Source: Marivirga harenae
Lineage (GTDB): Bacteria > Bacteroidota > Bacteroidia > Cytophagales > Cyclobacteriaceae
Reading direction: 5' to 3'
Length of the DNA: 64,000 bases
Assembly: GCF_030534335.1 (NCBI RefSeq)
Contig: NZ_CP130565.1
Location: 4,113,501-4,177,500 of the forward strand
This document shows positions 7,199 to 19,341 of this stretch, in pieces (within the stretch, counting starts at the first letter, position 1; each line of letters begins with the position of its first letter). Below the pieces are notes generated by a model, which saw nothing but the letters and a program-made list of their open reading frames with translations, was not told the origin of the DNA and did no database searches. Position numbers and translations under genes: made by a program.

Positions 7199-8029
7199 GT
7201 GAAAAACAGGATAATTATTTGTATCGCTCTCATGGTTTTGGGTGAGCCTTTGCTCGGGCAATCTCCTTCCTTAAATACAAGAGATTCCATCAATGTCTTT
7301 ACCCAAGGCTTATTTATGCAGACAGGTGAGTGGGAAGTCAAACTTTACAACAACCTATACACCCAAATAGAGCCTCAATTTGATAATACAACAAGGAGAA
7401 GCAGTTTTAACAGCAGTTTTCTGCAGCTTACAATCGGAAGCAACAAAAACATTAACTATGGCATAGATTTAATTTATAAATCCAATGTCATTAACGATAG
7501 AGGTTCGAGTTCTCCATTTGTAGTCTTTGAACTGATGAATAAAAGTCTTCAAAATATTTATATGGGGAATGAGTTTAATACTAACTTCCAGCATGGCCTA
7601 ACACATGTTGGAGGAAGAGTAAGAGTAAAACCCTTTAAAAATAAGCGCTTTACTTTTCAGCAGGCTATCTATGTCCCTACAGGAGAGTTAGATGAGGGCT
7701 TTATTATCAATTCCGACCTTTTTTACGAGAGAATTATACAAAACCGATATATGCTATTTGGAAATATAGGTGCTTGGTATCCCCTTTCTGGAGACATTTT
7801 TCCTTATGCAAGGGTGTTTGCTGGTACGTTATTGGCCAAGCGTTTTGGCCCTTTTGTCATGATTAATTTACCCTATGAAATAGGAGCAGGAACGAAATTA
7901 TTCATCAGCAGAAAAATTGAATTAGAGTTTATGTACACCTATTGGCTACCGATTGAAGCTATAGTCGAAAATCGAAGACCAACTTCCATCAATTTTGGGA
8001 TACGACTCACTAATTTCAATAATTTCTAA
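7199..8029 (+). CDS. Putative outer-membrane beta-barrel protein
   Basis: A 276-residue exported protein. The GTG start is the only one available before the signal peptide because an in-frame TAA is two codons upstream. The signal peptide is about residues 1-21 (cleavage after LLGQ). The mature part alternates polar and aromatic residues in many short predicted strands (for example QLTIGSNKNINYGIDLIYK, VGGRVRVKP, RKIELEFMYTYWL) and ends in FGIRLTNFNNF, a typical C-terminal barrel strand with a final aromatic residue. I recognise no specific family; substrate and role are unknown. Confidence 0.65.
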   Translation: MKNRIIICIALMVLGEPLLGQSPSLNTRDSINVFTQGLFMQTGEWEVKLYNNLYTQIEPQFDNTTRRSSFNSSFLQLTIGSNKNINYGIDLIYKSNVINDRGSSSPFVVFELMNKSLQNIYMGNEFNTNFQHGLTHVGGRVRVKPFKNKRFTFQQAIYVPTGELDEGFIINSDLFYERIIQNRYMLFGNIGAWYPLSGDIFPYARVFAGTLLAKRFGPFVMINLPYEIGAGTKLFISRKIELEFMYTYWLPIEAIVENRRPTSINFGIRLTNFNNF

Positions 8030-8111: not shown

Positions 8112-8744
8112 CTATTTAGCCTTTATTCTCTCTTCCAATTTCAGAAGCCTCTTTTCGACTTTGCTTAAACGTTTTTCGAACGGGTCAATCATTTTAATTG
8201 GCTGGTAATTTCCAATAACTTTAATTGAGTTTTGAATAGATGCATATTCAATTTTTATTCTATTCAAAAAGATAAAATCTTCATTAATCTGTGTAACTTT
8301 TCCAATTATCGATTCATTTTTGAGTCCAATGACAAACAACTTGTTTTTAATAGGTTCTTCTTTCAATCCAAAAATTAAATCATCAATGCCACAATAAGGG
8401 TTTTCATTTAAATCAAGCCCTTTAATGACTATCACATCTTTTGGAAGGAATTTAGCAAGATATTCATCCTTTTTAAGTATTTCGTGCTTTTTGGCTTTGT
8501 CCACTATATTGGGCAATTCAAATCCACTTAATTGATTAACAGTAATATTTCTCTTTAATAGATCATCAGTGGTTACATTAAAGACCTCAGCTGTTTTGAT
8601 TATAGTCTCAATTTTTGGTTCAGCCCTACCCTCTTCATATGAACTAATAACGCCTCTACTTACATCAATTAAATCTGCCAATTGAGATTGTGTTAATCCT
8701 CTAACACTACGTATTTTTTTAATATTCTCGCCATATTTTGACAT
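8112..8744 (-). CDS. XRE-family transcriptional regulator
   Basis: A 210-residue DNA-binding protein. Residues about 5-60 are a Cro/CI helix-turn-helix (IRSVRGLTQSQLADLIDVSR, then GVISSYEEGRAEPKIETIIK). The region from about 85 to 185 is beta-rich and vaguely recalls the S24/LexA dimerisation fold, but I see no Ser-Lys protease pair. The C-terminus (PFEKRLSKVEKRLLKLEERI) is a short coiled coil, probably for oligomerisation. It is divergent from the PspA-flotillin-ATPase operon and shares with it a short region with TTTGCAAA palindromes, so it is the obvious candidate regulator of that operon and of itself. That link is inference from position. Confidence 0.85.
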   Translation of the reverse strand: MSKYGENIKKIRSVRGLTQSQLADLIDVSRGVISSYEEGRAEPKIETIIKTAEVFNVTTDDLLKRNITVNQLSGFELPNIVDKAKKHEILKKDEYLAKFLPKDVIVIKGLDLNENPYCGIDDLIFGLKEEPIKNKLFVIGLKNESIIGKVTQINEDFIFLNRIKIEYASIQNSIKVIGNYQPIKMIDPFEKRLSKVEKRLLKLEERIKAK

Positions 8745-8769
8745 ATTCTAATAATTTAAATAACAATAT

Positions 8770-8812
8770 TTTGCAAATAATATTATCATTGAATGCAAAT
8801 ACTATTTGCAAA
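8770..8812. promoter_or_regulatory. Paired TTTGCAAA palindromes, candidate operator
   Basis: Between the divergent XRE gene and the psp-like operon lie two copies of the palindrome TTTGCAAA (8770-8777 and 8805-8812). The second extends to the perfect 12-mer TATTTGCAAATA (8803-8814). An extra half-site TGCAAATA (8794-8801) forms a second perfect inverted repeat with the 5' half of that 12-mer (GCAAATA-C-TATTTGC, 8795-8809). Site centres are 35 bp apart. This is what a dimeric XRE repressor that controls both genes would need. Confidence 0.6.
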
Positions 8813-8885
8813 TATAATTTTTTTTATGGATATTGTGCTATTGAATATTCACCAAATCAATTTTAAATATAAAAATAAACCCTTA

Positions 8886-9278
8886 ATGGAACCATATTTC
8901 AAAAAAGTTAAAGAGTTTGTTTTGGAGCTCGAGTCTGTAATTCTTTATGAAAGCGAATCAGATAGTTTGTTAGTAGTGGAAAATGAAGATTTAGGTGTAA
9001 AAAACATGGTCATTGGAGTAGCATCACCAATAGTAATTATTGAGCAATATCTTTTTGAAGTAAAAGATGAAGGAGACATTTACAAAAAATTGCTGATCAA
9101 AAATCGGGATATTGTTCATGGTGCTTTTGTATTAGACGAAAAAGGTGAAAAGGTCATATTCAGGAACACCTTACAAGTGGAGACATTAGACCTTAAAGAA
9201 TTAGAAAGTACAGTTAACTCATTAGGATTACTACTATCAGAATTTTCCGATGAGCTTGTTTCATTTTCAAAAAATTAA
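8886..9278 (+). CDS. Small CesT/YbjN-like protein, first gene of psp-flotillin operon
   Basis: A 130-residue acidic cytosolic protein starting MEPYFKKVKEF. The open frame extends upstream to 8793, but that would place the start inside the operator palindromes and add an unconvincing hydrophobic leader, so ATG 8886 is preferred; 8826 is a second possibility. The alternation of helix, strands (ESVILYESESDSLLVVENED, KNMVIGVASPIVIIEQYL), and long C-terminal helix (LKELESTVNSLGLLLSEFSDEL) matches the CesT/Tir-chaperone or YbjN fold. Proteins of this kind occur next to pspA in several phyla, probably as partners. It is 23 bp from pspA. Confidence 0.65.
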   Translation: MEPYFKKVKEFVLELESVILYESESDSLLVVENEDLGVKNMVIGVASPIVIIEQYLFEVKDEGDIYKKLLIKNRDIVHGAFVLDEKGEKVIFRNTLQVETLDLKELESTVNSLGLLLSEFSDELVSFSKN

Positions 9279-9301
9279 ATTAAAAAATAAATAACATACA
9301 C

Positions 9302-9994
9302 ATGAATGTACTAAGAAGACTATTTAAAATCGGACAAGCTGAAACCAATTCGGCAGTTGACAAACTGGAAGACCCAATCAAAATGGTTGAGCAGGGATTA
9401 CGAGACATGCGCGAAAATCAAGATGTGGCTATGCGATCTTTAGCAGAAGTTAAAGCTATGCACATCAAAAGAACTAGAGAGTTAAATGAAACTAAGGATG
9501 CTGAAGAAGATCTTCAAAACAAATCTGTTTTACTACTAAAAAAAGCTCAACAAGGTGATATCGATAGTGCAGAAGCTGACAATTTTGTTAAAGAAAACCT
9601 TAAAAGAAAAGCACAATTGGCAAAAGATATACTTTTAATGAAAGAAGATGTAGCCAACTTAGAGAAACAAGTTGCTACATTAGAGAAGAACGTAAATAGT
9701 ATTAAGACAGGTATCAAACAATGGGAAAATGAATTAAGCACCCTAAAAGCTCGAGTTAAGGTTAGCAGTGCCACTCAAAAAATCAATAAGCAAATGACGA
9801 ATATGGATAGTCATAGCGTGGTTTCGATGTTGGAAAGAATGAAGAGTAAAGTAATGCAAGATGAAGCTTTAGCTCAAGCATATGGTGAAATGGCTGATGC
9901 CAGCGAAACTCATGAGGAAAAAATGAATAAAGCCATCGAGAATATTTCAGTAGAAGATGAATTAGCGCAAATGAAAAAACAATTAGGAATATAG
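9302..9994 (+). CDS. pspA: PspA/IM30 family membrane-stress protein
   Basis: A 230-residue, almost entirely helical protein of the ESCRT-III-like PspA/Vipp1 superfamily. The N-terminal VLRRLFKIGQAETNSAVDKL is an amphipathic membrane-binding helix followed by the diagnostic EDPIKMVEQGLRDM. Long coiled-coil helices run to about residue 150. The C-terminus has VVSMLERMKSKVMQDEALAQ and a final short helix. PspA proteins polymerise on damaged or curved inner membrane and preserve the proton-motive force. No PspB, PspC or PspF neighbour is present; its partners here are a flotillin and an AAA+ ATPase. It is the second gene of the operon. Confidence 0.93.
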   Translation: MNVLRRLFKIGQAETNSAVDKLEDPIKMVEQGLRDMRENQDVAMRSLAEVKAMHIKRTRELNETKDAEEDLQNKSVLLLKKAQQGDIDSAEADNFVKENLKRKAQLAKDILLMKEDVANLEKQVATLEKNVNSIKTGIKQWENELSTLKARVKVSSATQKINKQMTNMDSHSVVSMLERMKSKVMQDEALAQAYGEMADASETHEEKMNKAIENISVEDELAQMKKQLGI

Positions 9995-10071
9995 TTTTCA
10001 GAATGAATATTCAAGCTTAATTCAATAAGCAGAAAATAAATTATTACTGAAACTATATTTTTATTTGCACT

Positions 10072-10704
10072 ATGGAGAATTTAATAAATATTGCATTAGC
10101 ACCTGCGAATTTCATATTAACAATGTTGGCAGCATTAATGGTGTTCTATTGGCTATTAATTATTTTTACAGGCTTAGATTTTGACTTTGCAAACGCAGAT
10201 GTAGATGCTGATTCGGGAGCAATAGATGCCGGAGAAATAGAAAGCCCTGGATTTTGGAATTCATTTTTATCGTTTTTCTATATTGGAGAACTTCCAGTCA
10301 TGTTCATAATAACTATCGTAGTGTTTTGCATGTGGCTAATAAATGTAAACATCACTGCTATTCTAGGAATCGAAAATAACCTATTTGGATTCTTGCTTTA
10401 TATTCCTGGGTTAATAGTAAGTATGCTGATCACCAAAGTAGTGGCCAAACCATTTGTCAAACTATATGCACAATTTAACCATAAAGGAGAAGTAGCGATC
10501 GATTTTATCGGTAAAACCGGTAAAGTACTATCTCCTATAGGTTCAGATAAAATAGGTCAATTAGAAATACAGGTAAATGGCGATATTATTAAAGTTTATG
10601 CTAAATCTATTGATAATGAACCCGTAGCCTTTAATGAAACAGTTATCATTTTAGAAGAATCACCAGACAAGAAGTATTTTCTTGCACAAAAATTTCCACA
10701 ATAA
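10072..10704 (+). CDS. YqiJ-like OB-fold membrane protein
   Basis: A 210-residue inner-membrane protein. Three hydrophobic segments (about 10-32, 75-98 and 105-125) are separated by an acidic loop (FDFANADVDADSGAIDAGE). The soluble C-terminal part (about 140-210) is beta-rich, with GEVAIDFIGKTGKVLSP and GQLEIQVNGDIIKVYAKS, as in NfeD/YqiJ OB-fold domains. NfeD-like and YqiJ proteins are genetically tied to SPFH/flotillin proteins, and here the flotillin gene follows 16 bp downstream. It likely anchors or regulates the flotillin assembly in the membrane. Confidence 0.8.
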   Translation: MENLINIALAPANFILTMLAALMVFYWLLIIFTGLDFDFANADVDADSGAIDAGEIESPGFWNSFLSFFYIGELPVMFIITIVVFCMWLINVNITAILGIENNLFGFLLYIPGLIVSMLITKVVAKPFVKLYAQFNHKGEVAIDFIGKTGKVLSPIGSDKIGQLEIQVNGDIIKVYAKSIDNEPVAFNETVIILEESPDKKYFLAQKFPQ

Positions 10705-10720
10705 TTTAAACGCAAATCTT

Positions 10721-12748
10721 ATGATAGAATCATTTTACGTAGCTGCCACGGTAGGCATCGTTGTTTTATTTGGGCTAGGGATCTGGCTCATCTCAATGTA
10801 CAAAAAAGTAAGCCAAGGACGTGTTTTAGTGCGGACGGGTCAAGGGGGTGTCAAGATTTTCTTTAATGCTGGTATGGTAATTCCTATTCTGCATAAAGAA
10901 GAAATCATGGATATCTCTGTTAAAAAACTGGAAATATCCAGAATGACTAAAGATGGACTTATCTGCAAAGACAATATGAGAGCAGATATTAAAGTTGCTT
11001 TCTTTGTCCGCGTTAATAAATCTGTTCAAGATATTGTAAACGTTGCCCAAACCATAGGTTGCGAAAGAGCGTCAGATCACGAGACTCTTGAGAGCCTTTT
11101 CGAGGCAAAATTCTCTGAAGCTTTAAAAAGTGTGGGGAAGAAATTTGAGTTTATAGAATTATATGAAGCCAGAAGAGAATTCAGAAATGAAATTATTGAC
11201 ATAATTGGTACCGACTTAAATGGATATGTTTTAGATGATTGTGCTATTGATTATCTAGAACAAACTAATGTCATGAACCTAGACGCTGAAAATATTTTAG
11301 ACGCTGAGGGTATCAAAAAGATTACAGAATTAACAGCTGCTCAAAAGATTAAATCTAACCTAATCCGAAGAGACGAGGAGAAAACCATCAAAAAACAAGA
11401 TGTTGAAGCTCGAGAAGCAATATTAGAACTTGAAAAACAACAAAAAGAGAAAGAAGAATCACAGCGAAGAGAAATTGAAACAATTATAGCTAGAGAGCAA
11501 GCTGAAATCGATACTGTAAGCTCTCAAGAAAAGCTCAAGTCTGAAGAAGTACGTATTAGAACTGAAGAGCAGCTGGAAATACAACAGGAAAACAAACTTC
11601 GTCAGGTGATTATTGCTGCCAAAAATAAAGAGAGGGCTGAAGCGGTTGAAACCGAAAGAGTACAAAAAGACCGTGATATTGAAGCCACGGAAAGAGAAAG
11701 AATAGTTTCACTTGCTCAAATCGAGAAAGAAAAAGCAGTTGAAATTGAAAAAAGAAACATTCAAGATGCCATTCGAGAACGAGTGGTAATGGAGAAAACG
11801 GTGGTAGAAGAGCAAGAAAAAATCAAAGATGTTGTTGCATTGAAAGAAGCTAACAGACTTAAAGATGTAGCGATCATCAATGCTGACAAAGACGCACAAC
11901 AAAACTTGATTGAAGATGTGAAGGCTGCAGAAGCAAGGGAGAAATCTGCTAAATTTGACGCACAAAAAGTGTTAATTGAGGCTGGTGCTAAGAAAGATGC
12001 GGCTGATATGGAAGCAGAGGCAAGGAAAATAATTGCAGATGCTAAAGCCAAAGAAGAGGCTACAATAGGAATGTCAGAAGCACAAGTAATGCATGCCAAA
12101 GCTGATGCAAATGAAAGACAAGGCACTGTTGATGCTGTTGTTATTGAAAAAATTGCTGAAGCTAAAAGAAAGCAAGGCCTTGCAGAAGCTAGTGTTATTC
12201 AGGAAAAAGCTGTTGCAGAAGCTAAGGGTATCCAAGAAAAAGCCGGAGCTATGAAGCAATTGAATGATGCTGGTAAAGAACACGAAGAATTCAGATTAAA
12301 GCTTAGTAAAGAGAAGGAAGTACAATTAGCTGAAATCGGCATTCAGAAAGATATAGCTGATTCTCAAGCAAAAGTACTGGCTGAAGCTTTTAAAACTGCT
12401 AAAATTGATATTGTCGGAGGTGACAATACCTTCTTTGAAAACCTTGTTAGACAAGTTTCAAATGGAAAAGGAATCGATAAACTGGTAGAGAATTCCAATA
12501 CTATTACAAACTTTAAAGATTCTTTGTTAGGAGGAATTGGTGAAGATGGCAAGCCAACTGATATAATCGAAAGGATTAAAGGGATGGCTACCAAGTATGG
12601 TATCTCCGCAGAAGATATAAAAAACCTATCTATTGCCGCTTTAATAGCACGTGTTCAATTGAAAGCTTCTGATGAAGATAAAACCTTTCTATCAAACATA
12701 AGTAATTTTGTGAGCGGAATTGGATTAGATACCAAAAAGCTAAACTAA
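10721..12748 (+). CDS. Flotillin (SPFH/band 7) family protein, YqiK-like
   Basis: A 675-residue protein from ATG 10721; the open frame begins earlier at a TTG inside the previous gene, which I reject. Residues about 5-27 are one N-terminal transmembrane helix. An SPFH domain follows (about 30-210: GRVLVRTGQGGVKIFFNAG, VAFFVRVNKSVQDIV). Residues about 215-560 are a very long charged coiled coil rich in Ala, Glu and Lys (EAEARKIIADAKAKEEA, EKAVAEAKGIQEKAGA), the flotillin domain. The C-terminal about 115 residues are mixed and probably globular. Flotillins form large membrane-microdomain scaffolds or cages. Its neighbours PspA, the OB-fold protein and the ATPase suggest a joint membrane-repair assembly. 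Confidence 0.9.
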   Translation: MIESFYVAATVGIVVLFGLGIWLISMYKKVSQGRVLVRTGQGGVKIFFNAGMVIPILHKEEIMDISVKKLEISRMTKDGLICKDNMRADIKVAFFVRVNKSVQDIVNVAQTIGCERASDHETLESLFEAKFSEALKSVGKKFEFIELYEARREFRNEIIDIIGTDLNGYVLDDCAIDYLEQTNVMNLDAENILDAEGIKKITELTAAQKIKSNLIRRDEEKTIKKQDVEAREAILELEKQQKEKEESQRREIETIIAREQAEIDTVSSQEKLKSEEVRIRTEEQLEIQQENKLRQVIIAAKNKERAEAVETERVQKDRDIEATERERIVSLAQIEKEKAVEIEKRNIQDAIRERVVMEKTVVEEQEKIKDVVALKEANRLKDVAIINADKDAQQNLIEDVKAAEAREKSAKFDAQKVLIEAGAKKDAADMEAEARKIIADAKAKEEATIGMSEAQVMHAKADANERQGTVDAVVIEKIAEAKRKQGLAEASVIQEKAVAEAKGIQEKAGAMKQLNDAGKEHEEFRLKLSKEKEVQLAEIGIQKDIADSQAKVLAEAFKTAKIDIVGGDNTFFENLVRQVSNGKGIDKLVENSNTITNFKDSLLGGIGEDGKPTDIIERIKGMATKYGISAEDIKNLSIAALIARVQLKASDEDKTFLSNISNFVSGIGLDTKKLN

Positions 12749-12801
12749 TACAATCTTAAAAAGACTTTATTACAAAAGGATTTGCTAATAGAGCCTATTC
12801 A

Positions 12802-12840
12802 TTTTTGCTACTGACTTTAACCTGAAGTCAGTAGCAAAAA
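12802..12840. repeat. Perfect 16-bp stem hairpin between flotillin and ATPase genes
   Basis: Arms TTTTTGCTACTGACTT (12802-12817) and AAGTCAGTAGCAAAAA (12825-12840) are exact reverse complements around a 7-nt loop. The T run leads and the A run trails, the reverse of an intrinsic terminator, so there is no U tract after the stem. It lies within the operon, 53 bp after the flotillin stop and 58 bp before the ATPase start. An mRNA stabiliser, processing site or attenuation-type element that sets the ATPase dose is a reasonable reading. Confidence 0.65.
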
Positions 12841-12898
12841 TAAATATTACTAATTAAGAAATTCATTAAACCATTTAGGATCAGGGAATAAACCGATT

Positions 12899-15800
12899 AT
12901 GGATAATAACATTGAAAGAGGTACCTACGAAATCATCCAAAACCGATTACAGGAGCAACGCGAAAAACTCGTTAACAGACTTCAAGAATTAAATAAAGAA
13001 CGTCAGAAGATATTTGGGGCTGTTGATTTTAAACTTCTATCAAATGTTCGTATCAAAACGGAGCACAATTGCTTGGCAAGAGATATTATCTCTATTGGCA
13101 AAATTTGTTTGTTTGGATATAATGTCAGATTAGGTCTCAAATCAATTCTTGAGATTGATGATGTTTTTAGTGTTTTCCATTTTGAAAACAATGAATTTCA
13201 TCCTCTTTCTTCTGATATCTTAAAAGATGCTACTTTCTCAGAAGAACTTCAAAATCTATATAAATTCTATCGACACACTCAATTCTCTCGTTTTTTCAAG
13301 AAAGGCAGCTTTCTGTATATGGTTTTTCAATTATCTGATAGTCCTACAGATATTAAAGCTTATAAATGGCACATAGAAGATGACAAACTAACTTTTGTGG
13401 ATTCCCGAAGTGCGGCTGAAGTAGAATTTCCTGCACAGCACGAGTTTTCTTGGTCAAAAGCCACTCGTGACATGCAGAGGACCGGTAAAAATCCCCATAT
13501 TTCTATTGCAGATAAAGTGTTTGTTGAGACAGTTAACGGCAACCTAACGATTAAAATAGAGGATAATACGGATGATGGGGCTGGAATATACAGTGAAGAT
13601 GTTGAGCAAAGAGATCAATCACTAGATGATGCTGAAGTCTCATTCTGCGATTTGGGTAATTTAGTGTTACTTAAAATAAAACCCTATTTAGAAAGTAATC
13701 GCTACTTCATTTTTAATTATAAGGTTAAAAAAGTTGTAAGAGTAGATACGCTGAAAGATGCGGGTATTCTTTTGCCAGATGAACAAGGGATTATTTTATC
13801 CAATGGATATTATTTGCAAACAGGAGAAAATAAAATTTTTGATAAAAGAATAGAAGGGGTGCAATTCTTAAGGAAAATTCAATCCCCAAATGGTGAAGAT
13901 TACCTATTCGTTTTCTATGAGGAAAAGAACCACGATTTTGTAATCCTCTCTTATAATGTAATAGAGCAAACCGTAAAAACTCCAATTTTCTGCAATGGAT
14001 ACACTTTATTTTCAGATGGTGAAATGTGTTACTTTAATACTGAAAAGAACCCCAGTAAAACACACTTAATTCAAATTTGGCAAACGCCCTACACTAAAGA
14101 ATTAATCCCTAATGAAGAATTTAAAGATCATGAGCTCTACAAAATAGGGAACAGGATGATTGTAAATGCAATGGCCGAAATCCAAGAACTTGTGGTTTTA
14201 TTGAATAAAGAAGACAGTTACAACGGACTTTACGAGGATATTGAAAAAAGAAGCCAAGGTATTCTAGATGGATATTTTTGGTTAAAAGGTGATTCCCCAG
14301 AAGGCTTAAATCAACCTTTGAAAAAGGTCAAGGAAATTGCCATTTCTGCTATTGATGAATTTGAAAAAGTTAAGGAAATCCGTAAAAAAACAAATGATAC
14401 CTTATCTGACACAAAAGAAAAAGTAGAAAAAATTCTTTTCGATACGCGAAGAGCTAATTATGAAACGCTAGAAGAATATATATCCTTGCTTTCTCAAATG
14501 AGAAGTGTTAGAGGAGAAATTATCGGGTTGAAAAATCTCCGATACATTGATTTGGAATTAGTAGAAAAAATGGAAGGTCAAATAGCTGAAAGAGCTAATG
14601 AACTTTCTGAAGCCTGCGTGAAATTTCTTTTACAAGATAATGCCTTAGATTACTACCAAAAGCAAATGAATGCATTGGTTGAATCAGTTCAAGAACTCAA
14701 AAAAGTAATTGAAGCAAAAGAATTGGAAAAAGAGTTCGATGAACTTTCCCTACAATTAGAATTACTAATCGATATCGTTAATAATCTTAAAGTAGATGAT
14801 ACAGCACATTCAACTCAAATTATTGAAAATATCTCCTTAATATTTGCACAACTCAATCAGCAAAGAGTTGCACTTAATAACAAGCGAAGGCAACTAGGTG
14901 AGCGTGAGGCTAGGGCAGATTTTCAAGCCCAAATGACGCTTTTTGAGCAGTCAGTTGTGAATTATCTTGATTTATCAACCAATCCACAAAAATGTGACGA
15001 ATATCTTACGAGATTATCGATCCAATTAGAAGAGCTTGAAAGTAAATTTGTAGATTTTGATGAATTCACTGAAAAAATAAGTGTTAAAAGAGAGTCAATT
15101 TACGCTGCCTTTGAATCTAAAAAAGTAAACCTCACCGAAGCCCGAAACAAAAGAACCAATTCTTTATTTGGATCAGCAGAGCGAATTTTAAAAGGGATAA
15201 AATCAAGAGCTTCCAGCTTTGAAACTGAAATTGAAATAAATGGCTATTTCGCTTCCGATTTAATGATAGACAAAGTCCGTGATGTGGCTGAGCAATTAGA
15301 AAAGTTAGGCGATTCAGCTAAATCAGAAGATTTATTAAATCGGCTTCAGGTACTTCAACAAGAAGCAATACGAGCCCTAAAAGACAAAAAAGAACTTTTT
15401 GAAGATGGTAATAACGTTATAAAGCTAGGAGAATACCGTTTTGCAACGAACAATCAAAAATTAGATTTAGCTTTGGTCATAAAGGATAAGAAGTATTTTT
15501 ATCATCTAACCGGCACCTCCTACTACGAGGCAATAGATGCCACAAAAATTCATGATCTAAAAGATGTATGGGAACAGGAATTACCTTCAGAAAATAAAAA
15601 TGTAAACAGAACAGAGTACTTAGCGTGGAAGATTTTCAATTCACTTAATCAGCGTAAGAAATATACAGACCTTGAATTGAAGAAAGAAATCACCCAATAT
15701 ACTGCAGAAAATTATGGTGAAGGCTATGTGAAAGGAGTTCACGACCATGACGCGCTTTTAATATTAAAAACCTTAATTCAGAAGCATAATGATTTAGGTT

Positions 15801-17755
15801 TATTGCGTTTCTCTTCGAATGTTAGAAATTTGGCTCAATTATTTTGGCATTTTACTGACGCTGAAAAAAAAGCATATTTCAAAAAGCAATTTGTACTAGT
15901 AAATTTACTCAAGCAAGCTTTTCCAAATACTAAAGAGCATACTCATTTAATTGGAAACCTTAGTGCAGCAATAAACAATTTCTCCAAAGAAAATCTTTTA
16001 CTTCAAAACACCAATTCTCATCAGGCAGCAATTTATCTGGCTGAAGAACAACTTTCAGATGGTTTCACAATAGACAAACTTGCTTTTGATATTTTACAAG
16101 ATTTTAAAAAAGACCTGAAGTCAAAAAATGCAGACCTAAGTTTCCAAGATGCTCAAAAGGAATTAAAAGACCATCCAGCAGAAAATTGGCATCTCTGCAA
16201 AGAATGGGTGATTTCTTTTGTTGAAAACAGTAAACATAAATGCGCTGATGGGACTATAAATGAAGTGGCTTGTTTCATAATGACCAACTCTGCAGATAGT
16301 AAAATGGTGCAGTCGATTTCAGGAATTGAAAAAATAGGAAATTTGAAAACTGTTATTGGTAATAATGAACAAGATGAGCATGAATCCACAAAAACTTACC
16401 TTTTCAATTACCATGAATTTGTAAATAAATTAACGCACTTTGTAAAAGAAGTAACACCCCGATATTATGAGCTTCAAAAGCTCAAACACGAACTTATAGA
16501 AGAAAAAAGAAAAACGTTAAGATTACATGAATTTCAAACTCAAGTTCTTACTTCATTTGTCCGAAACAAATTAATTAATCAGGTTTATTTCCCTTTAATA
16601 GGAGCCAATTTTGCCAAGCAAATGGGTGCTTATGGCAATGATAAACGTACTGATCGTTCGGGAATGTTGTTATTAATTTCACCACCGGGCTATGGTAAAA
16701 CAACCTTAATGGAGTATGTAGCAGATAGACTAGGATTGATATTCATGAAAATCAATGGCCCGTCTATAGGTCAAGAAATAACTTCCGTAGATCCAAATGA
16801 AGCACGTAATGCTGCCACTAGACAGGAGTTACAAAAGCTAAATCTGGCTTTTGAGATGAGTGATAATGTGATGCTTTATTTAGATGATATCCAACATTGT
16901 AATCCTGAATTTTTACAAAAATTTATTTCTCTTGCGGATGGACAAAGGAAAATTGAAGGCGTTTTTAATGGTGAATCAAAAACCTATGATTTTAGGGGAA
17001 AGCGTTTTTGCGTGGTAATGGCAGGTAATCCCTATACCGAAAGCGGGGACAAATTCCAAATCCCAGATATGCTATCAAATAGAGCTGATATATATAATTT
17101 GGGAGATACTGCTTCAAACAGAGAAGATCTTTTCCGATTAAGTTTAATTGAAAACGGACTCACTTCAAACTCTTATCTGAAGTCAATTACGCAATTTGGC
17201 TTAGAAAACCTTTATAAATTAGTGAAATATATTGAAAATGATGACCAGAATATTCCAGAAATGGAAGGTAATCTTTCCCCTCAAGAAGTACAGGATTGTC
17301 TGAAGGTACTTCAAAAAGTCATTTTCATTAGAGATGTGGTATTAAAAGTCAATGGCCAATACATTAAATCTTCTGCTATGAGTGATGATTATAGGGTAGA
17401 GCCACCATTTAAATTACAAGGATCTTACCGTGACATGAATAAACTTATGAGTCAGGTGGTTCCTATATTAGAAGATAAAGAGGTAACCCAGTTACTGTTG
17501 GATCACTATCAAAACGAATCACAAACCTTAACATCTGATGCCGAAGCTAATCTATTAAAATTAGCAGAGCTTATGGATAATTTAGATGAGGATAAGGTTA
17601 AAAGGTGGAATACCATAAAAGAAACATTTGTGAAAAACAACAAAATTAGAGGGTTAGGAGATTCCGACAGGATGTCACAGATTATAGGGCAAATGACCTT
17701 ATTTGTTGAAGGATTGGAAAATATTGAGAAAGCATTGATTAAACGTAAAAATTAA
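12899..17755 (+). CDS. Giant coiled-coil AAA+ ATPase (DUF3686 / 'DNA repair ATPase' type)
   Basis: A 1618-residue protein. A short N-terminal coiled coil (about 10-40) precedes a beta-rich region (about 45-430) that looks repetitive or propeller-like. Residues about 470-860 are extended coiled coil (EFEKVKEIRKKTNDTL, AIEKELE-type heptads). A mixed helical region leads to one AAA+ module: Walker A PPGYGKTT at about 1261-1268, Walker B VMLYLDDIQH at about 1322-1331, sensor-1 VVMAGNP at about 1371, and PDMLSNRAD with a likely arginine finger at about 1388. Homologues are often labelled DNA repair ATPase (DUF3686), but no DNA-binding motif is visible here. As last gene of the PspA-flotillin operon, a role in remodelling PspA or flotillin polymers, as Vps4 does for ESCRT-III, is a better-supported guess. 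Confidence 0.85.
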   Translation: MDNNIERGTYEIIQNRLQEQREKLVNRLQELNKERQKIFGAVDFKLLSNVRIKTEHNCLARDIISIGKICLFGYNVRLGLKSILEIDDVFSVFHFENNEFHPLSSDILKDATFSEELQNLYKFYRHTQFSRFFKKGSFLYMVFQLSDSPTDIKAYKWHIEDDKLTFVDSRSAAEVEFPAQHEFSWSKATRDMQRTGKNPHISIADKVFVETVNGNLTIKIEDNTDDGAGIYSEDVEQRDQSLDDAEVSFCDLGNLVLLKIKPYLESNRYFIFNYKVKKVVRVDTLKDAGILLPDEQGIILSNGYYLQTGENKIFDKRIEGVQFLRKIQSPNGEDYLFVFYEEKNHDFVILSYNVIEQTVKTPIFCNGYTLFSDGEMCYFNTEKNPSKTHLIQIWQTPYTKELIPNEEFKDHELYKIGNRMIVNAMAEIQELVVLLNKEDSYNGLYEDIEKRSQGILDGYFWLKGDSPEGLNQPLKKVKEIAISAIDEFEKVKEIRKKTNDTLSDTKEKVEKILFDTRRANYETLEEYISLLSQMRSVRGEIIGLKNLRYIDLELVEKMEGQIAERANELSEACVKFLLQDNALDYYQKQMNALVESVQELKKVIEAKELEKEFDELSLQLELLIDIVNNLKVDDTAHSTQIIENISLIFAQLNQQRVALNNKRRQLGEREARADFQAQMTLFEQSVVNYLDLSTNPQKCDEYLTRLSIQLEELESKFVDFDEFTEKISVKRESIYAAFESKKVNLTEARNKRTNSLFGSAERILKGIKSRASSFETEIEINGYFASDLMIDKVRDVAEQLEKLGDSAKSEDLLNRLQVLQQEAIRALKDKKELFEDGNNVIKLGEYRFATNNQKLDLALVIKDKKYFYHLTGTSYYEAIDATKIHDLKDVWEQELPSENKNVNRTEYLAWKIFNSLNQRKKYTDLELKKEITQYTAENYGEGYVKGVHDHDALLILKTLIQKHNDLGLLRFSSNVRNLAQLFWHFTDAEKKAYFKKQFVLVNLLKQAFPNTKEHTHLIGNLSAAINNFSKENLLLQNTNSHQAAIYLAEEQLSDGFTIDKLAFDILQDFKKDLKSKNADLSFQDAQKELKDHPAENWHLCKEWVISFVENSKHKCADGTINEVACFIMTNSADSKMVQSISGIEKIGNLKTVIGNNEQDEHESTKTYLFNYHEFVNKLTHFVKEVTPRYYELQKLKHELIEEKRKTLRLHEFQTQVLTSFVRNKLINQVYFPLIGANFAKQMGAYGNDKRTDRSGMLLLISPPGYGKTTLMEYVADRLGLIFMKINGPSIGQEITSVDPNEARNAATRQELQKLNLAFEMSDNVMLYLDDIQHCNPEFLQKFISLADGQRKIEGVFNGESKTYDFRGKRFCVVMAGNPYTESGDKFQIPDMLSNRADIYNLGDTASNREDLFRLSLIENGLTSNSYLKSITQFGLENLYKLVKYIENDDQNIPEMEGNLSPQEVQDCLKVLQKVIFIRDVVLKVNGQYIKSSAMSDDYRVEPPFKLQGSYRDMNKLMSQVVPILEDKEVTQLLLDHYQNESQTLTSDAEANLLKLAELMDNLDEDKVKRWNTIKETFVKNNKIRGLGDSDRMSQIIGQMTLFVEGLENIEKALIKRKN

Positions 17756-17762
17756 TACTTTT

Positions 17763-17795
17763 GGGATTATGTTAAAATAGCCATAACATAATCCC
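17763..17795. terminator. Hairpin after the ATPase gene
   Basis: Arms GGGATTATGTTA (17763-17774) and TAACATAATCCC (17784-17795) pair perfectly around a 9-nt loop, 8 bp past the ATPase stop and just before the convergent phosphatase stop. There is no long T run, so strength as an intrinsic terminator is uncertain, but the position between convergent genes suits a shared transcription end. Confidence 0.55.
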
Positions 17796-17798
17796 CAA

Positions 17799-18545
17799 TT
17801 ATTCGGCCACTGTAGATTGAACAAAAGTTTCTTGCTCCTCTATCCATGCGGTTAATCTCCCATTTATTTTACAACCTTGATCCAAGTTCAATACATTCCC
17901 CATTTTTACAGGTTCGGTGATACCAAATTTTACTGTTGGGGTATGGCCAATGTAAATCGTATCAAATTCAACATTTGCGAGATCAAACCTTTTATCAATT
18001 CTGCCCTTTCTTTGGGACCATTTGGCATAAGCACTTTCAAAAAGACTTCTATTCCATAAAAATTCCTGCTGGTTCTGATTTTTAGTTATTCTAAATCCTA
18101 CATCAGGATCAAATCCAGCATGAACATATAACTTCTTACCAATAATGTGAAAATATTTTAACAGATCGTAAAATTTACTTTTGTGTTTGAGAATTTCATC
18201 GTCACTTAATTTAAGATATGACAAATAGGTTGACCAACCATCATTCCTAAGCCATGACGAATACTTGGATTCAATAAATTCATGATTTCTAAACTGTTCT
18301 AGTCCTTCATTTAGGGCTTCTATCATCCAAGAATCATGATTTCCCATTATAAAGATATTCTCAAAAGAAGAGTTTTCGTTTATATCAATTAAATGTTCCA
18401 CTACTTCTACAGACTGCTCAAAGCCGTCAATGTAATCGCCTAAAAATATTAATCGGTCATTATCTATATCAAAATTTGCTTTAAGGAGGACCGCTTTAAG
18501 TGATTGATAATTCCCGTGTATATCTCCTATCACTAATGTTCTCAT
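17799..18545 (-). CDS. Metallophosphoesterase, serine/threonine-phosphatase type
   Basis: A 248-residue enzyme from the ATG giving MRTLVIGDIHG; a longer reading adds 13 residues before the catalytic core and is unlikely. Motifs of the PPP/bis(5'-nucleosyl)-tetraphosphatase group are clear: GDIHGN (about 7-12), LGDYIDG (about 36-42), MGNHDSW (about 68-74), and later VHAGF and IGHTP, which supply the dinuclear metal ligands. Substrates in this group are phosphoproteins or Ap4A; I cannot tell which. It is a single gene, convergent with the ATPase. Confidence 0.88.
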   Translation of the reverse strand: MRTLVIGDIHGNYQSLKAVLLKANFDIDNDRLIFLGDYIDGFEQSVEVVEHLIDINENSSFENIFIMGNHDSWMIEALNEGLEQFRNHEFIESKYSSWLRNDGWSTYLSYLKLSDDEILKHKSKFYDLLKYFHIIGKKLYVHAGFDPDVGFRITKNQNQQEFLWNRSLFESAYAKWSQRKGRIDKRFDLANVEFDTIYIGHTPTVKFGITEPVKMGNVLNLDQGCKINGRLTAWIEEQETFVQSTVAE

Positions 18546-18756
18546 GGAATTGATCTTACGAAAACTCCGTATAAAACGATACAATCCAAAATAGTCGCAA
18601 GACGTAATCTTCTACAATTATTCAATGAAACTCTCTATCCATTGGTTTACTATTACATAAATCATCAAAATTATGATTATAGAAATGGGAAGAATCGATC
18701 GGACCGAAGCATAAGAACTGAAATAAAGACCCTGAATAGCCTTTAAATGCGATTAT

Positions 18757-19341
18757 TTAAACCCAGCCAATCCTTTCGTAAACCTCATAGACTTTCAAGC
18801 CCAAATAGGCATCAGTAGCCGCATAATCAATTTGAGCCTGGGTCAGTTCTGTTTTTTCCCAATTGGAGGTTTGCTGCGCTTTTGAAATTCTTTTCTCCAG
18901 AAAAATGGCGGTCAGGTTTTTAGCCCCGCTCTGTAACATCCCGTTTTCTCTCGCAATAGAGCCTATATCTTCAAAACTCTCTGGCCTAAACTTCCTTAAT
19001 TTTTGAAGGTCTTTTAAATCATCGTGAATCGCTGCACCTGTTTTAATAATAGAAGGATCTTCAAATATTCTGACCAATTCTCCATGGAAACCACACATTA
19101 AGTTTCGAATTAGAAAAACCTCCTCTTCAGTAGCCAATTGAATCAGAGAAACAGGATTGTATTGTCCTTTTTTGAATACAGGTTTTGCTTCTGTATCGAA
19201 GCCCAAAACGTCAGCTCTCCATAATTTCGGAATCACTTCTTCCCAATCTTCGTCCTTTTCTACCAATGTGATTTCCCCTTCAAATTTCCAAAGTGGCAAA
19301 TCATTGATTTCTTCTTTTGAAATCTCTTTTACAAAATTCAT
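18757..19341 (-). CDS. DEDDy-type 3'-5' exonuclease (RNase D-like)
   Basis: A 194-residue protein made of one exonuclease domain. Exo I is VLGFDTEAKP (Asp and Glu, about 45-54), Exo II includes TGAAIHDDLKDL (about 115-126) and Exo III is IDYAATDAYLGL (Tyr...Asp, about 171-182), so it is the DEDDy subclass. There is no HRDC domain, so it is shorter than true RNase D (about 375 residues). It may trim RNA or DNA ends. Its start overlaps the nhaC stop in an ATGA, so the two are translationally coupled although no functional link is obvious. Confidence 0.88.
   Translation of the reverse strand: MNFVKEISKEEINDLPLWKFEGEITLVEKDEDWEEVIPKLWRADVLGFDTEAKPVFKKGQYNPVSLIQLATEEEVFLIRNLMCGFHGELVRIFEDPSIIKTGAAIHDDLKDLQKLRKFRPESFEDIGSIARENGMLQSGAKNLTAIFLEKRISKAQQTSNWEKTELTQAQIDYAATDAYLGLKVYEVYERIGWV

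Follow-up and report, generated by a model that had tools for sequence, protein, structure and literature searches.

The 64,000-nucleotide stretch of Marivirga harenae analyzed in this work (RefSeq assembly GCF_030534335.1, contig NZ_CP130565.1, positions 4,113,501 to 4,177,500; hereafter the window) carries, at 8112-17755, an island of six genes: an XRE-family regulator and, divergent from it, five plus-strand genes encoding a CesT/Tir-like chaperone, PspA, a YqiJ/YuaF-like membrane protein, a flotillin and a DUF3686/AAA+ ATPase. What is new here is that the gene content of related loci points to two separable modules, with the motor apparently going first with the flotillin scaffold. We give an even chance to the reading that a repressor controls the island, whose flotillin scaffold is remodelled by a MoxR-like ATPase, PspA being a common, separable partner. 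The locus bears on how ESCRT-III-like PspA polymers are dismantled and on what powers the flotillin scaffolds of bacteria; a single unit brings together the genes for scaffold, motor, PspA and switch.

Distribution and gene order

In a phylum sample of 198 Bacteroidota genomes, drawn evenly and including the window's own, DUF3686 was found in 6 genomes, CesT_Tir_1 in 29 (14 of them strong matches) and PspA in 82. All six DUF3686 genomes present the complete six-gene order and strands. A GTDB-wide scan for the ATPase, whose query was an alignment built from six full loci, returned at least 519 relatives; the counts presented here rest on the best-scoring 80, a set that leans to the full form given how the query was built. 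Removing seven truncated loci with too little upstream sequence (L080, L084, L099, L101, L103, L113 and L126) leaves 73 loci, 49 of which contain all six genes in order; the duplicates L063 (same contig as L011) and L071 (equal to L012) are counted. In the host family (Cyclobacteriaceae), DUF3686 occurs in 37 of 196 genomes. The 37 ATPase loci of this set, at least four of which repeat loci of the GTDB-wide set, are divided into 28 with six genes, 2 without a CesT match, 4 with YqiJ, flotillin and ATPase only, and 3 with the ATPase only, two of these last on short contigs and one a second copy (the short-contig loci are L223 and L229; L230 is the additional, ATPase-only copy, found in genome G229). 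In G229, G353 and G399 the DUF3686 matches fall in several pieces, which suggests broken ATPase genes or copies.

Given this recurrence in the three sets, the arrangement is not a chance one. No further gene family recurs beside the unit across many genera: when the flanking genes were clustered, the widest cluster covered 6 genus labels and resembled generic ABC ATP-binding proteins. An earlier note, made from the letters of the window, had proposed a self-contained island under an XRE regulator of its own, and a search for its gene order in other genomes. Such a unit is supported, as the order is kept across Bacteroidota, no extra family recurs, and the unit is present or absent as a whole within the genus (see below).

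A flotillin core and a separable CesT-PspA pair

Among the 73 loci, YqiJ and flotillin stand beside the ATPase in 72, versus 50 for PspA and 52 for XRE. The exception (L124) has no flotillin beside the ATPase, and a 57%-identical flotillin elsewhere in the genome. When a plasmid collection was scanned, 12 of 72,556 records matched the ATPase, several of them chromosome-sized; in the 11 that were examined (from Pseudomonadota, Actinomycetota, Deinococcota and Bacteroidota), flotillin precedes the ATPase in all 11, YqiJ is found in 10, and PspA is nearby in 2. The earlier note had the ATPase disassembling or remodelling PspA and/or flotillin polymers in a Vps4/ESCRT-III-like repair machine. For the disassembly of PspA the claim is not supported in that form, given a YqiJ-flotillin pair that is near-invariant where PspA is not, and nearest folds of the MoxR type.

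PspA is missing from 23 of the 73 loci. For 22 genomes with YqiJ, flotillin and ATPase and no local PspA, a genome-wide check with PF04012 at E 0.001 gave no match in 11, assembly completeness not being given; by title, these are six strains (L064, L068, L091, L100, L107 and L136) and five metagenome bins. The obligate ESCRT-III-type partner of a Vps4-like enzyme is thus lacking in half of these genomes as far as PF04012 is concerned, archaeal and eukaryotic Snf7 profiles not having been searched. On a FastTree phylogeny of the ATPase, in which long branches were flagged, the PspA state switches 8 times, and at least 6 of these switches are forced by well-supported branches. The PspA-less loci of Chryseobacterium (L064, L068, L091) and Pontibacter (L100, L107) look like losses, beside PspA-bearing sisters.

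The other half also occurs by itself. In eight genomes with a strong CesT match and no ATPase, scored within a fetched stretch of 20 kb each, the CesT-PspA dyad stands alone, with flotillin, YqiJ, ATPase and XRE absent from the stretch, so that each half is found without the other. Within the host's family the ATPase usually has PspA as a companion; in other families PspA is not required.

One plasmid locus (L140, pQBR103) has YqiJ, flotillin and ATPase after a run of YjfI, PspA, DUF2491, DUF350, DUF1190 and glutathionylspermidine synthase genes, and is two published PspA operon classes joined.

The ATPase

The ATPase gene (12899-17755, plus strand; 1618 residues) matches DUF3686 at 1.5e-185, DUF7902 at 1e-24 and AAA at 2e-8. 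Two AlphaFold2 models (mean pLDDT of 86.2 and 86.8) predict a beta-propeller at residues 45-395 approximately, a long helical and coiled-coil region at about 412-830, a helical middle, and a C-terminal AAA+ module at about 1210-1565. The N-terminal beta-rich domain was matched to beta-propellers by Foldseek.

After re-ranking the structural matches of the AAA+ module with VIA-align, CbbQ/NorQ (MoxR) structures take ranks 1-10 with Z scores of 15.3-16.9 (16.9 for the best CbbQ and 16.7 for the best NorQ), followed by dynein and Rea1; plain Foldseek, sorted by E-value, lists MCM, RuvB and NorQ first. MoxR AAA+ proteins are defined by a core with a beta-hairpin before sensor 1 and by MoxR-like closest folds. 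The predicted model presents a two-stranded beta-hairpin ahead of the sensor-1 strand (E532-537/E540-545), so that hairpin and nearest folds together argue for a MoxR-type module. Vps4 is absent among the 50 structural matches listed, an absence that excludes nothing. Pfam gave no match to a MIT domain, and the N-terminus is a helix plus the propeller in the model. No vWA partner gene was named among the recurrent neighbours, although a vWA profile was not run.

The Walker A motif, both Walker B aspartates, the sensor 1 asparagine, the arginine-finger candidate and the sensor 2 arginine are invariant in all 47 aligned rows, and an active ATPase is therefore predicted.

Regulator, operator and putative promoter

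The XRE-family gene (8112-8744, minus strand; 210 residues; HTH_3 at 3e-14 in Pfam) has counterparts lying divergently beside 49 of the 50 PspA-bearing loci GTDB-wide and all 30 of the host family, and none at the eight dyad-only loci. Across six relatives the helix-turn-helix aligns, and the C-terminal part does so poorly; this part is S24/LexA-like in some, with Peptidase_S24 over the cut-off in 2 of 8 relatives and below it in 3 more. Within the genus, XRE is the most divergent protein of the island, at 67% identity versus 88-97% for the others.

A palindromic operator, TGCAAAT-ACT-ATTTGCA, is predicted at 8794-8810 (motif TGCWAATN3ATTWGCA). The palindrome TGCWAATNNNATTWGCA was found in 30 of 53 XRE-side intergenic regions and its relaxed form in 41, while none of the 200 shuffled sets gave more than 1 (first-order Markov resamplings, as in the shuffle controls for the micro-ORF and for gap folding). 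Five Hymenobacter loci present GCTCAAANTTTGAGC in place of the usual palindrome. In the complete 4.37-Mb host genome, the strict pattern has a single site, which is the one at the island, and the reversed control pattern has none.

A putative Bacteroidota-type promoter was read by eye at 8805-8838 on the plus strand, with TTTG (8805-8808), a 22-nt spacer and TATTGTGC; the TTTG/TATTGTGC pair resembles the Bacteroidota -33/-7 promoter. This putative promoter overlaps the operator, which most naturally suggests that the operon is repressed, and a dedicated repressor with a single site probably switches the island. A scan for sigma-70 promoters was dropped because such sites were rarer than in shuffles.

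Many marine Flavobacteriaceae (for example Maribacter, Leeuwenhoekiella and Aquimarina) present a hydrophobic micro-ORF of 12-23 residues in the leader between operator and CesT (loci L078-L095, L109, L111, L120, L125 and L138), which the window does not have. It was counted in 12 of 27 regions of at least 200 nt, requiring a mean hydropathy of at least 1.5, while 50 shuffled sets gave 1-6 and the reverse strand 6. Across seven copies from Aquimarina, it is the third codon position that differs most (92, 82 and 168 for the three positions).

Genes of the island

The divergent regulator and the five same-strand genes described in the earlier note were all confirmed by Pfam and position, with two starts corrected. 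The CesT/Tir-like chaperone (8886-9278, plus strand; 130 residues; CesT_Tir_1 at 6.7e-54) is taken to start at about 8886 rather than at the listed ATG 8793, because residue 32 of the ORF as listed is where the Pfam profile opens, and that ATG abuts the operator; relatives' matches have 126-131 residues. PspA/IM30 (9302-9994, plus strand; 230 residues) is the sole PF04012 (PspA_IM30) match in the genome, at 2e-37, with 129 bits versus a cut-off of 33.9 and spanning 1-217 of the 220 profile positions.

The YqiJ/YuaF-like membrane protein, with a NfeD-like C-terminal part (10072-10704, plus strand; 210 residues), scores below the curated Pfam cut-offs for both YqiJ_N (4e-3; 17.7 of 23 bits) and NfeD (0.02; 15.4 of 29.1 bits). 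Its assignment is consequently drawn from conserved position and from profiles built in this analysis, whose matches in relatives back the assignment by position; it has 27-35% identity to the same-position genes of five relatives (blastp). For the flotillin (10721-12748, plus strand; 675 residues; SPFH/Band_7 plus a long coiled coil), ATG 10721 is preferred over the listed TTG 10682. The full-length protein has no Pfam match, the N-terminal 210 residues match Band_7 (1.3e-13; 51.8 bits versus a cut-off of 23.6), and identity to relatives' flotillins is 48-69% (blastp). In L090, L106 and L111 there are two flotillin-matching ORFs, with 2.4-4.5 kb from the first of them to the ATPase; the flotillin gene is possibly split or duplicated there.

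The earlier note had also remarked on the lack of PspB, PspC and PspF. No such family was found by Pfam among the island proteins, which sets the island apart from a classical Psp operon, and the 4 PspC-family matches of the host genome all lie outside it. Beyond the window, G000:C1:4261012-4261407 falls in an 834-residue open frame holding two PspC-family stretches.

After the start corrections, the gaps between the five plus-strand genes are of 23, 77, 16 and 150 bp. The last of these, between flotillin and ATPase, contains a 16-bp hairpin with no T-run behind it (12802-12840, plus strand). In relatives, 29 of 51 such gaps fold at z below -2 (median of -2.5), with no shared sequence, and such folding may adjust the ratio of ATPase to flotillin. 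A 12-bp hairpin follows the ATPase gene (17763-17795, plus strand), and L188 has a comparable one of different sequence 3' of its ATPase gene. The terminator scan did not pick it up, and found no plus-strand terminator-like site within the operon or at its end.

Presence, absence and mobility

Seven further members of the genus were compared at the gcpE flank. One of them (G410) has all six genes there, with a DNA identity of about 82%; in the other six, the gcpE side and the sequence from base 18757 onwards lie close together and the six genes are absent. In five of the six, DUF3686 is missing from the whole genome, and the sixth (G411) was compared at the site only. The island is present or absent as a whole within the genus, by gain or by loss.

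The flanking genes vary as well: among seven sister genomes fetched, the ORF at 7199-8029 was found in L189 only, and the metallophosphoesterase at 17799-18584 in none of the fetched stretches. The site therefore looks like an insertion hot spot. A phage or mobile-element origin was rejected, as none of 50,697 phage records and few of the plasmid-collection records contain the ATPase. With a value of 0.336 for the island versus 0.348 for the window, base composition does not show a recent foreign origin. A defence annotation was rejected too, given that PADLOC gave generic HTH and coiled-coil matches and no named defence system across the six proteins.

Near related loci in other organisms, TerD-like and TelA-like proteins, named by eye, lie at 18966-21512 of L091 (Chryseobacterium), and an annotated TerD lies at 18143-18676 of L143 (a Streptomyces plasmid).

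Proposed mechanism and alternative explanations

We propose that the island serves envelope maintenance as an accessory unit that regulates itself and joins two modules. In the core module, the YqiJ-like membrane protein would help seat the flotillin, which would build a membrane scaffold; the propeller and coiled coil may dock the ATPase, whose MoxR-like AAA+ ring would remodel the scaffold or the proteins held by it. The second module, CesT chaperone and PspA, would control PspA assembly, with the scaffold recruiting PspA to damaged membrane. From a single promoter-covering operator, XRE would repress both the operon and itself, and membrane stress would relieve this repression. Gene content, order, modularity, operator and ATPase motifs are shown by the sequences, and the AAA+ fold class is predicted.

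Several observations weigh against this proposal. Regarding the regulator, XRE is also found at 3 of the 23 PspA-less loci, all in Chryseobacterium; 12 of the 53 XRE-side regions lack even the relaxed operator form; and that form occurs in only 9 of the 30 XRE loci of the host family, searched anywhere in the stretch. Regarding the motor, the sequence-only matches in the PDB are short p97/CDC48-like and RuvB P-loop stretches and the general Pfam AAA profile slightly outscores AAA_5, which leaves structure prediction as the basis of the MoxR placement. Regarding PspA, every one of the host family's 37 ATPase genomes has it (36 further genomes and the window's own), versus 33 of the 159 ATPase-less ones (31 of the 33 over the cut-off), an association with a Fisher p of 8e-21 that is uncorrected for kinship among genomes, as are all the Fisher tests here, and that arises largely because PspA belongs to the locus. 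The four PspA-less loci of the family are likewise all in genomes with PspA elsewhere (p of 0.002), although the assembly of G255 is very fragmented. PspA may therefore matter more than we propose.

These last figures are what would be expected if the PspA polymer were the main substrate of a Vps4-like disassemblase, with flotillin and YqiJ as its membrane anchor, and Ravi et al. (PMC11237479) suggest that the PspA partner of abbreviated operons may come from another locus. Such a mechanism is possible, but it is not the best fit and we place it on the unlikely side: it has to contend with the genomes without a PspA match at any locus, five metagenome bins among them, with the scarcity of PspA on the plasmid-collection loci, with the 33 family genomes that hold PspA and no ATPase, and with the predicted MoxR-like fold ranking and hairpin. 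Given the existence of PspA-less versions within a same genus (Chryseobacterium), whether the motor acts on flotillin or on PspA is directly testable, and the one-site repressor offers a clean way of reading out the signal that induces the unit.

A conflict device, active for instance against membrane-hitting phages or toxins, with flotillin and PspA guarding the membrane under a repressor, would explain the patchy spread (6 of the 198 genomes sampled from the phylum and 37 of the family's 196), the coming and going at one site within the genus, the dedicated XRE with its single operator and the presence of the locus on some plasmids. MoxR-vWA systems with beta-propellers have been proposed as conflict systems, in the part of the source cited (PMC7159879). 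Yet PADLOC gave only generic noise, defence neighbours are not recurrent, phage records are devoid of the ATPase, no vWA gene recurs within the limit given above, and the core evolves slowly within the genus, which makes this explanation quite improbable. Somewhat less so, if still doubtful, is a chaperone or quality-control role, where flotillin and YqiJ would hold unfolded membrane-proximal proteins, the MoxR-like ATPase would mature or release them, and PspA and CesT would be clients or co-chaperones. The closest folds are those of CbbQ and NorQ, proteins that bring enzyme complexes to maturity, which is in line with such a role. So is Staphylococcus aureus FloA with NfeD, cited in an excerpt of PMC13086221 as stabilising unfolded proteins without ATP. 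However, no locus gene names a client enzyme, and this role differs from the scaffold-remodelling mechanism in substrate alone, a difference not separable by sequence.

Comparison with known systems

The island is an instance of the operon class published by Ravi et al. 2024 (PMC11237479; example ANH61663.1), in which CesT/Tir and PspA are joined to a band-7/flotillin protein, a YqiJ/YuaF protein and a propeller-coiled-coil-AAA+ protein; the authors also describe shortened operons that lack PspA, and they put forward ESCRT-like roles. All five gene families are shared with the island, YqiJ membership being by profile and position. ANH61663.1 is presumably a Dokdonia protein. The earlier note had called the biochemistry of the system undescribed in Bacteroidota, which stands for biochemistry only, no paper on it or on DUF3686 and no experimental study of the ATPase having been found outside the subscription literature; the operon and an ESCRT-like role had been put forward by Ravi et al. 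Literature linking MoxR, propeller and flotillin, or "DNA repair ATPase" and flotillin, was searched for and none was found. The term "xre" is absent from the main text of Ravi et al., apart from figures and supplements, whereas the island has an XRE regulator; the XRE operator, the PspA-free genomes, the MoxR-like placement and the presence/absence site go beyond that work.

In Escherichia coli YqiJ-YqiK and Shewanella SO1376-SO1377, a YqiJ-type (DUF1449) protein is followed by an SPFH2-type flotillin, as in the island, and the sections cited describe no ATPase, PspA, CesT or XRE there (PMC2636767, PMC1468410). In Bacillus subtilis pspA-ydjGHI, the SPFH protein YdjI is needed for bringing PspA to the membrane (PMC8581546), a precedent for SPFH-PspA recruitment; as far as the cited part goes, that system differs in its membrane partners (YdjG/H), its lack of an AAA+ ATPase and its sigma-W control. 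Band 7, flotillin, NfeD and HTH regulators are found with PspA in Acidobacteriota, according to the portion cited of Popp et al. 2022 (PMC9239133).

In HflK/C-FtsH, an SPFH scaffold works with an AAA+ enzyme (PMC13220708, in part). We suggest tentatively, and with clearly less confidence than the mechanism for the island itself, that the DUF3686 ATPase is a flotillin-dedicated motor of an SPFH scaffold across phyla and a third SPFH-AAA+ partnership, to which Bacteroidota would have added the CesT-PspA pair and a single-operator XRE switch, its fastest-evolving input part sensing the envelope damage proper to each species. In comparison with CbbQ and NorQ, which are proteins of about 255 residues, with NorQ-NorD entries solved with vWA partners, the island's module is fused to a propeller and a coiled coil. 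In comparison with Vps4 and ESCRT-III, the island likewise encodes an AAA+ ATPase beside a polymer of the ESCRT-III superfamily, PspA, but ATPases of the island type are tied more strictly to flotillin than to PspA.

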